DNA from: Collinsella aerofaciens
GTDB taxonomy: Bacteria; Actinomycetota; Coriobacteriia; Coriobacteriales; Coriobacteriaceae
Assembly (NCBI RefSeq): GCF_028209885.1
Contig: NZ_JAQLEM010000036.1
Span: forward strand, 1-21,539
DNA: 21,539 nt
Direction of reading: 5' to 3'
Below are positions 11,549 through 14,738 of this stretch, piece after piece. Position 1 is the first letter of the stretch; each line of letters opens with the position of its first letter. Position numbers and translations under genes: made by a program. The notes beneath the pieces were generated by a model. It searched no databases and was not told the origin of the DNA. It was given only the letters and a program-made list of their open reading frames with translations.

Positions 11549-11708
11549 TGTCATTTGCTTTGTGATATGTGCTCATCTGTGATGAGTTTGTTTATATGTT
11601 TATCTGTATCCGACCCGCATAAGCTGCGCCCATATTACTCAAATGTCGCGAGCCGTTCGTAAGGACGGTTCGCTTTGTTGTGTAACGAATCCATAAAAAG
11701 GAGTGAGC
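11549..11708 (+). ncRNA. Structured rny leader or short terminated RNA
   Basis: The predicted transcript between the 11514 promoter and rny contains two terminator-like hairpins. The first is CTCATC/GATGAG (11572-11586) followed by TTTGTTTATATGTTT. The second is GCGAGCCGTTC (11648-11658) paired with GGACGGTTCGC (11663-11673) around a GTAA loop, followed by TTTGTTGTGT. A 31-codon reading frame (11567-11662) without a ribosome binding site ends with its TAA inside that loop. It could be an attenuated leader of the RNase Y gene or a small RNA of about 130 bases. Neither is demonstrated. Confidence 0.5.
11648..11683 (+). terminator. Intrinsic terminator or attenuator in the rny leader
   Basis: An 11-bp stem with one G-T wobble is capped by a GNRA-type GTAA loop and followed by TTTGTTGTGT. 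It lies 26 bases before the rny start and downstream of the strong promoter, so some transcripts should end here. Confidence 0.7.
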
Positions 11709-13259
11709 ATGCCTATCATCGCAGCGCTCGTTGGCATCGTTTTGGGTGCCATCGCCGCCATTGCCTACATGCGCACCGCCAAGCAGGGTAGTCTTCACGA
11801 GGCCGACGAAAAGATCCAGTCGGCACACGCACAGGCTGAGTCCCTGATCGGTGATGCTAAGCGTCAGGCCGAGACCCTCAAAAAAGAGGCTCTGCTCGAG
11901 GCTAAAGAGGAGATCATCAAGAACAAGCAGGCCGCCGAGGCCGAGGACAAGCAGCGTAAGAGCGAGATTCGTACGCTCGAGAACCGTGTGATGCAGCGCG
12001 AGGAGTCCCTCGATCGCCGCAACGACGCTCTCGACAAGCGCGAACATCAGCTGTCCAGCCAGGCCGGTCAGGTCGAGAAGCGCTCCCGCGAGCTCGAGGA
12101 GCTCTGCGCCAAGCAGACCTCCGAGCTCGAGCGTATCGCCGACCTGACCCGCGAGGACGCCCACAAGGAGCTCCTCGATAAGGTTCGCGGCGAGGTCACC
12201 CACGAGGCTGCCACGATCATTCGCGAGTCCGAGCAGCAGGTTCGCGCCGAGTGCCACAAGACCGCCCAGGAGATTCTGTCCTTGGCGATTCAGCGCTGCG
12301 CTGCCGACCACACAGCCGAGGTCACCGTTACCTCCGTGCACATCCCCTCTGATGACCTCAAGGGCCGTATTATCGGTCGCGAGGGTCGCAACATCCGGAC
12401 CTTCGAGCAGGTTTCCGGCGTCAACCTCGTGATCGACGACACGCCCGAGACCGTCGTTCTTTCGAGCTTCGACCCGGTCCGTCGTGAGACCGCCCGTGTT
12501 GCCCTCGAGAACCTCATCGCCGACGGCCGCATTCACCCCGCCCGCATCGAGGAGATGTATCACAAGGCTGCCGACCTGGTTCAGCAGCGCGTGCGCGAGG
12601 CTGGCGAGCAGGCTGCCTTCGATACCGGCATCCACGACCTGCACCCCGAGATCGTCAAGACCCTTGGTGCCCTGCGCTACCGTACCTCGTTTGGTCAGAA
12701 CGTGCTTCAGCACTCCCTCGAGGTCTCTGACCTGTGCGGCGTGATGGCTTCCGAGCTTGGCCTGGACGTTGTGACCGCTAAGCGCGCCGGCCTGCTGCAC
12801 GACCTGGGCAAGGCAATCGACCATGACGTCGAGGGCCCGCATGCCGTCATCGGCGCCGAGCTTGCCCGCCGTTATGGCGAGAAGCCCGTTATCGTTCACG
12901 CTATCGAGGCTCACCATGCCGATGTCGACCCCAGCACGGTGCTCGATGTCCTGGTACAGGCCGCCGATGCCGTCTCCGCCTCTCGCCCCGGTGCCCGTCG
13001 CGAGTCTGCCGAGAACTACATCAAGCGTCTTGAGAAGCTCGAGGAGATTGCCAACTCCCATGAAGGCGTCGAGCGTACCTATGCCATGCAGGCTGGTCGC
13101 GAGGTCCACGTCATGGTTCAGCCGGACAAGATCTCCGATGCCCAGTCCACGGTCCTGGCTCACGATATCGCCCATCAGATCGAGGAAGAGATGGAGTATC
13201 CCGGTCAGGTGCGCGTCGTCGTGATTCGCGAGAGCCGCGCTGTCGATATCGCTAAATAA
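11709..13259 (+). CDS. rny: Ribonuclease Y
   Basis: A 516-residue membrane-anchored endoribonuclease that initiates mRNA decay. Residues 2-20 form the N-terminal membrane helix and about 28-190 a long charged coiled coil. A KH domain follows, with GREG at 223-226 ([23 protein letters not shown]). The HD phosphohydrolase domain carries the catalytic H364-D365 ([12 protein letters not shown]) and the later HAIEAHH stretch. The ATG at 11709 is preceded by AAGGAG with a 5-base gap; a GTG at 11703 overlaps that site and is less likely. The next gene starts one base after the stop. RNase Y with RNase J fits a Firmicutes-style decay system in this lineage. Confidence 0.97.
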
Positions 13260-13260
13260 C

Positions 13261-14346
13261 ATGAGCGACGCGAACGAGCTCATCTCATTTATCGCGTCGA
13301 TGTCGGGGGAGGGCAACCTTCGCGTCGAGGAGAACCTTGGCGAGGGGTATGTCCGCCTCCGCGTTTCGGAGGCCGAGCGGCGCCAGGCAAAACACGACAT
13401 TCAGCATGTCGAGGATATCGTCATCGAAATGCTCCGTAATGCTCGCGATGCCGGCGCCGACAAGGTCTATCTCGCCACGACCAAGGAAGATGGCGTCCGC
13501 ACGCTTGTCTTTCTGGATAACGGTTCGGGCGTTCCGCAGGATATGCAAGAGCGAATCTTCGATGCTCGCGTTACCTCAAAGCTCGAGAGCATGAAGATGG
13601 ACCGTTGGGGCGTTCACGGTCGTGGCATGGCATTGTTTTCGATCAAGCAGAACACCGACGAGGCCCGTGTGGTCACGTCCGGCGTCGATCTTGGTTCAGC
13701 CTTTAAGGTGAGCGTTGCAGCCGACCGCCTCAGCGAGCGTGCCGATCAGTCCAGCTGGCCCCAGGCCGTCAAGGATGAGGACGGACGTTATGTCTGTGCT
13801 CGCGGCCCGCATAATATTATTCGCGCTGCCTGTGAGTTTGCGCTCGAGGAGCTGCGTGGTTGCGATGTCTATCTTGGTTCTCCGTCTGAGATTGCCGCGA
13901 CCCTTTATGCTCAGGCGACAAGTCGGCTCGATACGTCTCGTCTCCTGTTCATTGACGACGAGAGCGAGCTTCCGGTTGTCGACCGTTTAGGCCTTGCCTC
14001 CGATGCCGAGGACTTTATCCGCATCTGTTCGGGTTTGGGTCTTGAGATGTCCGAGCGCACGGCTCATCGCATTTTGGCAGGGCAGATTAAGCCCGTTCGC
14101 GGTGTGACCGCGCGTCTGCTGCGCGAGCGTGATTCGTCTTCGCATGCGCCGGCTCCTGTCGATCTCGCGAAGGATCGTCGCGGGCTACGTATTGCCAAGG
14201 ATGACATGGCACAGTTTTCGCGTGCTGTGGAGCGCGACTTTAATGACCTTGCCGCCCGGTACTATCTCAACCTTTGCGGCGACCCAAAGATTCGCGTTTC
14301 GCGTGATCGAATCACCGTGACCTTCGATCTTGCCAAAGAGGAATAG
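13261..14346 (+). CDS. GHKL-fold (HSP90/histidine-kinase-like) ATPase of unknown role
   Basis: A 361-residue protein with a Bergerat ATP-binding fold. Visible motifs are the N box (IEMLRNARDAGA, with E56, N60 and D63), the G1 box DNGSG (86-90) and the glycine-rich lid/G2 GVHGRGMAL (117-125). No phospho-acceptor histidine region, receiver, membrane segment or MutL/GyrB C-terminal domain is recognisable. Residues 240-361 look helical and contain DRLGLASDAEDFIRICSGLG and a final PKIRVSRDRITVTFDL strand. The start directly abuts the rny stop with no ribosome binding site, which implies translational coupling to rny. The gene lies between rny and spoVS, where Bacillus carries ymdB. I do not recognise a named family, and the function is unknown. 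Confidence 0.85.
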   Translation: MSDANELISFIASMSGEGNLRVEENLGEGYVRLRVSEAERRQAKHDIQHVEDIVIEMLRNARDAGADKVYLATTKEDGVRTLVFLDNGSGVPQDMQERIFDARVTSKLESMKMDRWGVHGRGMALFSIKQNTDEARVVTSGVDLGSAFKVSVAADRLSERADQSSWPQAVKDEDGRYVCARGPHNIIRAACEFALEELRGCDVYLGSPSEIAATLYAQATSRLDTSRLLFIDDESELPVVDRLGLASDAEDFIRICSGLGLEMSERTAHRILAGQIKPVRGVTARLLRERDSSSHAPAPVDLAKDRRGLRIAKDDMAQFSRAVERDFNDLAARYYLNLCGDPKIRVSRDRITVTFDLAKEE

Positions 14347-14420: not shown

Positions 14421-14738
14421 ATGGATTGCCTGAAGGTATCAAGCAAATCATCGCCCGCGTCCGTTGCCGGCGCCATCGCCGGCATGGTCAAGGATGGTGT
14501 ACCCGTCAACATCCAGTGTGTCGGTGCCGGTGCTGTCAACCAGGCCATTAAGGCCGTGGCTATCGCGCGCGGTTTTTTGATTCCAACCGGTTTTGATATT
14601 TCCTGCGCGCCCGTGTTCTCCGATATCCTCATTAACGGGGAGTCGCGCACGGCCATCCGCCTTTCTATCTACGTTCACCAGATCAATCGAGCTGCTATGG
14701 ATAACGTCGTCATGGATGATGTTAAGCCTGTGGCATAG
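14421..14738 (+). CDS. spoVS: Stage V sporulation protein S (SpoVS) family protein
   Basis: A 105-residue SpoVS-family protein with an Alba-like fold, presumed to bind nucleic acid. The conserved core reads LKVSSKSSPASVAGAIAG, then GAGAVNQAIKAVAIARGFL and ESRTAIRLSIYVHQ. It has about 20 residues beyond the usual 86. The ATG at 14421 is chosen over the upstream GTG at 14346 because CAGGAG (14408-14413) precedes it and the family start MxxLKVS matches. Bacillus spoVS also lies downstream of rny. No endospore genes are visible here and Coriobacteriia are not known spore formers, so a non-sporulation role is likely. Confidence 0.93.
   Translation: MDCLKVSSKSSPASVAGAIAGMVKDGVPVNIQCVGAGAVNQAIKAVAIARGFLIPTGFDISCAPVFSDILINGESRTAIRLSIYVHQINRAAMDNVVMDDVKPVA

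Follow-up and report, generated by a model that had tools for sequence, protein, structure and literature searches.

The 21,539-nucleotide stretch of Collinsella aerofaciens DNA analysed here (this whole stretch is called the window) encodes, directly behind the RNase Y gene rny, a 361-residue protein with an ATP-binding domain of the GHKL type. The family of this protein, referred to below as the GHKL protein, is real and conserved and apparently undescribed. Its gene lies directly behind rny in 211 of the 211 genomes with coordinates for both genes on one contig (143 of 143 in the class Coriobacteriia and 68 of 68 outside it), and literature searches found nothing on a GHKL family behind rny. 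The ATPase is of a known kind, its arrangement is new, and its C-terminal half has no recognised relative. The most likely reading, to which a probability of roughly 0.4 is given, is that the GHKL protein may work with RNase Y in the decay or processing of RNA and be switched by ATP; this is proposed from the sequence and the gene neighbourhood.

In the window, the stop codon of rny (TAA, 13257-13259) is separated by one base from the ATG of the GHKL gene at 13261. The start of rny was placed as in a relative annotated with the Prokaryotic Genome Annotation Pipeline (PGAP). No Shine-Dalgarno-like run was seen by eye at the usual distance before this ATG, which agrees with the first-pass annotation of the window, where the gene was described as abutting rny with no ribosome binding site of its own. 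A consensus scan of the plus strand at the junction gave no promoter- or terminator-like site. When adjacency was defined as a gap of less than 700 nucleotides between the two matches, the GHKL gene was directly 3' of rny on the same strand in 143 of the 147 Coriobacteriia genomes with coordinates; two of the other four have the genes on different contigs, and two, with no detected rny, have the GHKL gene at a contig start. The same arrangement was observed in all 68 carriers outside the class with coordinates for both genes. Of eight further non-class carriers without rny coordinates, seven have rny, and none was found in G372 (79% complete); altogether, three fragmented or incomplete assemblies contain the GHKL gene with rny not detected. 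The gap between the matches is 1-7 nucleotides in 16 of the 68 non-class carriers and 574-670 nucleotides in seven class genomes. Two of these seven were read, and in both the interval contains a gene of the same direction for a GNAT acetyltransferase (Pfam match over cut-off) (L102, 7244-7786; L108, 6222-6803). On these neighbourhood counts, the rny-GHKL arrangement is far beyond chance; it is phylum-wide, and the concern that it might be confined to one genome falls away.

The GHKL protein was found in 148 of 149 genomes across Coriobacteriia, and in 124 of the 124 of good quality. The 148 include G126, whose match is weak (4.3e-4) and which is outside the 147 genomes with coordinates. RNase Y was found in 147 of the 149 (two of these, G116 and G126, are weak matches and not true rny) and SpoVS in 139. 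By the use of a class-wide profile at E-values up to 1e-15, the protein was detected in 97 of 246 phylum genomes, 21 of them Coriobacteriia; the 76 others are spread over many family-level lineages, and 96 of the 97 carriers have rny. Lineage f33 (21 genomes), which might be guessed to be Rubrobacter-like, contains the most distant carriers. There the protein is recognised more weakly, and in 13 of its 15 genomes with coordinates the match begins 22-46 nucleotides after that of rny. The nearest named matches are five Collinsella aerofaciens loci with 100% protein identity; others are from Candidatus Geothermincolia, Anoxymicrobium and Solincola (all Actinomycetota) and from a "Rubrobacteridae bacterium". 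The NCBI name of a 100% identical copy is just "ATP-binding protein". No NCBIfam model was over its cut-off among the best 25 of 38 matches, PADLOC gave one weak row, and a phage collection gave no match. The profile searches thus found no characterised family with an unrelated role to claim the protein.

The protein belongs to the GHKL ATPase superfamily and is predicted to have the Bergerat fold. Two Pfam models, HATPase_c_3 (33 bits; cut-off 25) and HATPase_c (31.7 bits; cut-off 26.4), match residues 46-130 over their curated cut-offs, and the N, G1 and G2/G3 motifs are present: the N-box E56-N60-D63, the G1 motif DNGSG (86-90), VTSK (104-107) and the lid motif GVHGRGMAL (117-125). The N-box, G1 and lid motifs had been quoted exactly at the first pass. 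Conservation was read from an alignment of 124 sequences (A5: 120 of 358 protein hits, three loci and the window); P0024, a 509-residue protein with an internal duplication, is included in alignment A1 and excluded from A5. Glu56, Asn60, Asp86, Gly90, Thr105, Gly117, His119, Gly120 and Gly122 are identical in all 124 sequences, Asp63 is kept in 123 and Gly88 in 122. In the N-terminal segment, Gly29, Leu33, Glu37 and Arg41 are invariant in the 124 rows and likewise in a 21-row phylum alignment. Structurally, MutL, topoisomerase VI and gyrase come closest, and the predicted fold is GHL-like. GHL ATPases such as MutL, GyrB and Hsp90 bind ATP, close as dimers and release through hydrolysis. Since the general-base glutamate and the lid are intact, ATP-driven closing of the GHKL protein is plausible.

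The C-terminal half (residues 156-361), folded alone, gave a predicted local distance difference test (pLDDT) value of 75.5. Its structure search against the PDB gave nothing above noise, and its PDB sequence search gave no match. Ser264, Arg266 and Arg270 of its helical module are invariant in all 124 rows.

RNase Y initiates mRNA decay in many bacteria; to our knowledge, how it is steered outside Firmicutes is largely open. In the proposed mechanism, the GHKL protein would be a soluble, stand-alone GHL-type ATPase that binds ATP in a MutL-like pocket and may close as a dimer. Its C-terminal half might contact RNase Y and/or RNA, and the ATP state might switch the cutting sites or the efficiency of the membrane-bound RNase Y, the direction of this effect being itself presumed. 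Hydrolysis of ATP, with Glu56 as the putative general base, would reset the protein. Because the gene has stayed behind rny and often has the RNase AM-like neighbour described below, RNA decay seems to be the most probable field of work and RNase Y the most probable partner. The GHKL protein is therefore a concrete candidate for an RNase Y factor: a core ATPase, linked to rny across much of the phylum and often encoded near a second RNA-degrading enzyme. If it gates RNase Y, a new principle would emerge: a GHL protein controlling, by means of ATP, an endoribonuclease that initiates decay.

As a subordinate guess, the GHKL protein might do loading work like that of RicA and RicF in Bacillus, which hand RicT to RNase Y. 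RicT (YaaT) is taken here to carry a PSP1 domain. This domain is present in 68 of 69 class genomes, and YlbF/YmcA (RicF/RicA) was found in none of the 69; on this pattern a loader role is possible. In B. subtilis, RicT and RNase Y form a stable complex that depends on RicA and RicF (PMC10470536). The Ric (Y) complex (RicT/RicA/RicF), the known specificity factor of RNase Y, would be a functional analogue in that its proteins direct RNase Y (PMC10470536), but no sequence relation to the GHKL protein was seen. An ATP-gated, MutL-like matchmaker is also conceivable but unlikely: the GHKL protein would clamp RNA or RNase Y and license the endoribonuclease, across an Actinomycetota branch with an incomplete Ric complex. 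This would be the RNA-decay counterpart of the part played by MutL in nicking and unwinding during DNA repair.

To compare gene orders, 60 loci chosen for spread were read: 20 of the 149 class genomes, 20 of the 76 non-class carriers and 20 of the 81 rny-bearing non-carriers. Outside Collinsella, the commonest order is recA-rny-GHKL-spoVS-PHP-miaB-miaA. Among the 40 carrier loci, rny-GHKL is present in 40, rny-GHKL-spoVS-PHP-miaB in 19 and rny-GHKL-PHP in one. The genes spoVS, PHP, recA and miaB were each not found near the GHKL gene in some of the 40, some flanks being short; recA was near it in 30, compared with 40 for rny. The PHP gene encodes an RNase AM/RNM-like PHP phosphoesterase. It lies downstream of rny (and of GHKL and spoVS), as a rule immediately upstream of miaB, in 23 of the 60 loci (L094, L098, L100-L108, L141, L145, L148, L152, L154-L158, L164, L169 and L170). 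Four PHP proteins were scanned and gave E-values of 9e-42 to 1e-51 for RNase AM/RNM and of 8e-54 to 8e-60 for 3',5'-nucleoside bisphosphate phosphatase, all below NCBI's strict cut-offs for both families; the remaining PHP genes were detected by a profile built from these four. RNase AM of E. coli degrades RNA from 5' to 3' as an exoribonuclease (PMC9410882). The occurrence of an RNase AM-like gene in half of the 40 carrier loci points to RNA decay.

In the 20 non-carrier genomes (16 families), no GHKL-like protein was found in the 1.6-4.9 kb behind rny with the HMMER filters off. The next tested gene after rny is miaB in 14 of these loci, within 200 nucleotides in 11; PHP and then miaB follow in two. 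Thus rny-miaB-miaA is an old backbone, and the GHKL module occurs either behind rny or not at all. In three loci without a GHKL gene, rny and miaB are separated by an open frame of 309-367 codons in which no Pfam family exceeds its cut-off (L175, 3131-4126; L176, 2218-3144; L179, 2233-3333).

Several observations weigh against the GHKL protein as a partner of RNase Y. The backbone persists without GHKL, which means that part of the adjacency is explained as inherited order, and of 177 genomes with rny, 81 gave no GHKL copy. Apart from rny, the PHP gene is the strongest hint of RNA decay, and the window lacks it at this locus. In a mirror-tree comparison of 28 loci with all four genes, the GHKL distances correlate at 0.84-0.88 with those of recA, rny and miaB; the partial correlation with rny is 0.19, against 0.20 for recA and 0.45 for miaB, so that there is no rny-specific excess. 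The gene spoVS is separable from GHKL: it accompanies GHKL in 69 of the 97 carriers, was not found in 28 and occurs alone in ten other genomes. P-values for such associations, which take no account of shared ancestry, were disregarded. Finally, YlbF/YmcA is present in just 3 of the 246 phylum genomes and is missing from carriers and non-carriers alike; its lack in 243 of 246 means that the loader guess is not singled out. The coupling to RNase Y and to SpoVS that the first-pass annotation had suggested therefore stands unequally. With RNase Y it is a well-supported genomic fact, although the mirror-tree carries no signal specific to rny, and with SpoVS it is weaker. The suggested partnership in RNA handling is strengthened by the position behind rny and by the PHP gene, but the role itself is still read from context.

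These observations would also suit neutral synteny, in which the GHKL protein would be a housekeeping GHL ATPase of unrelated function, encoded in an old and slowly changing rny-miaB locus. The independence of the backbone and the lack of a special mirror-tree tie fit this explanation, as does the mixed content of the locus (ftsK, pgsA, cinA, recA, recX, miaB, miaA and hflX). However, the GHKL gene keeps its place behind rny in all 211 genomes with coordinates for both genes on one contig, while spoVS, PHP, recA and miaB were each not found near it in some of the 40 carrier loci, and the spacing is one base in the window and 1-7 nucleotides in the 16 non-class carriers. Neutral synteny is considered doubtful, although it is the best of the alternatives.

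The ATPase part of the GHKL protein is nearest to MutL. As to the second (transducer, S5-like) domain of MutL with its catalytic lysine, the alignment with MutL structures ends near MutL residue 217, and the C-terminal half alone matched nothing above noise. The match to the N-terminal ATPase model of MutL/Mlh1/PMS2 (TIGR00585; 30.2 bits, cut-off 180) ends at model position 102 of 555. The MutL C-terminal dimerisation/endonuclease domain is absent from the GHKL protein, which ends at residue 361. Topoisomerase VI-B, GyrB and ParE show 10-17% identity among the matches listed. Pfam scans at E-values up to 1 gave no Toprim, gyrase second or Hsp90 domain; three Pfam families matched, none of the HisKA type. 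For sensor kinases, HSP90 and gyrase, these scans agree with the earlier statement that the expected domains are lacking; for MutL, the agreement concerns the C-terminal domain.

A reduced MutL-type clamp for recombination or repair, working in a recA/recX locus mostly in lineages without MutL, might be considered from this likeness. MutL was over cut-off in none of 69 class genomes, where the best stretch for its model was usually the GHKL gene. In the phylum it was found in 9 of 116 genomes, all from f33 (G160, G174, G188, G200, G211, G221, G231, G241 and G251), with two MutL-type matches each, and all nine also carry GHKL; the other 107 sampled genomes gave no MutL-type match at E-values up to 1e-20. 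In each of the nine, at least one MutL-type match covers model positions only up to about 329 of 555. The coexistence of both proteins in these genomes (9/9) means that the GHKL protein need not take the place of MutL, and it is rejected as a MutL substitute. With the MutL C-terminal domain missing and recA less constant than rny near GHKL, a DNA-transaction ATPase seems quite unlikely.

A protein kinase or anti-sigma-type switch of the SpoIIAB or sensor-kinase kind, acting on SpoVS or a regulator and possibly with a C-terminal helix-turn-helix, is very unlikely: the HATPase_c match and the presence of SpoIIAB and histidine kinases among the Foldseek matches would allow it, but a glutamate at the general-base place (Glu56, 124/124) is the GHL pattern and not the histidine-kinase pattern, HisKA and sensor domains are absent, the closest structures are of the GHL kind, and no spoVS was found in 28 of the 97 carriers. 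As to the helix-turn-helix, it accounts for 5 of 12 sub-threshold Pfam families of the helical module, against 0 of 4 for reversed sequences. These matches are confined to a few relatives; the window's own helical segment matched no Pfam family, and searches of the module in PDB and NCBIfam gave no significant helix-turn-helix match.

The gene had been described at the first pass as occupying the ymdB position. In a Cytobacillus record, the order is recA-rny-TIGR00282 metallophosphoesterase (YmdB)-spoVS, so that YmdB shares the slot of GHKL behind rny and before spoVS. The two proteins are unrelated, and no YmdB phosphoesterase domain was found in the GHKL protein (Pfam, E-values up to 1). None of the 21 Coriobacteriia in the phylum sample gave a YmdB match. 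YmdB is also encoded in 27 of the 97 GHKL carriers, always far from GHKL or on another contig; the GHKL protein as a YmdB substitute is rejected for this reason. The slot thus matches the record compared, but GHKL does not replace YmdB. Two YmdB matches from genus g82 (G216:C53:57552-58343 and G153:C71:10775-11560) cross one in-frame TGA, a possible recoding or frame problem.

The features of the window discussed here are collected in the table.

Table. Positions of rny, the GHKL gene with its protein segments, and the downstream genes in the window
Feature	Position	Strand	Basis or remark
rny, RNase Y (N-terminal region, KH, HD)	11709..13259	+	TIGR03319 713 bits (cut-off 454); PF12072, PF00013, PF01966
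GHKL ATPase gene	13261..14346	+	Open reading frame, ATG start, 361 residues
N-terminal segment, residues 22-44, VEENLGEGYVRLRVSEAERRQAK	13324..13392	+	Conserved; candidate N-terminal arm
GHKL nucleotide-binding domain, about residues 46-153	13396..13719	+	N-box, G1, VTSK, lid motif
C-terminal half, residues 156-361	13726..14343	+	Helix-strand continuation, helical module, C-terminal helix and small beta sheet
Signature SERTAHRIL, residues 264-272, in the helical module	14050..14076	+	124-row alignment
spoVS (SpoVS/Alba-like), usual but dispensable downstream neighbour	14421..14738	+	PF04232 117 bits
miaB, tRNA methylthiotransferase; closes the conserved locus together with miaA	14788..16158	+	TIGR01574 over cut-off

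In the leader of rny, a GC-rich hairpin of 11 base pairs (11648-11673) lies about 50 nucleotides before the rny start and is preceded by CAAATG (11640-11645). This motif is present in 31 of 32 distinct leaders, drawn from 38 of 58 loci with the rny start located; L026 reads CAGATG. The stem sequence is highly variable, yet it folds in nearly all leaders, being weak in L037. No Rfam match was found in the window. The hairpin might act as a terminator/attenuator or in the autoregulation of RNase Y.

It should be added that NZ_OY725717.1 (L159) is listed as "plasmid 6" of Collinsella aerofaciens and is 900 kb long. Since recA, rny, miaAB, lexA and further core genes are located on it, it is probably a piece of the chromosome under a plasmid label.
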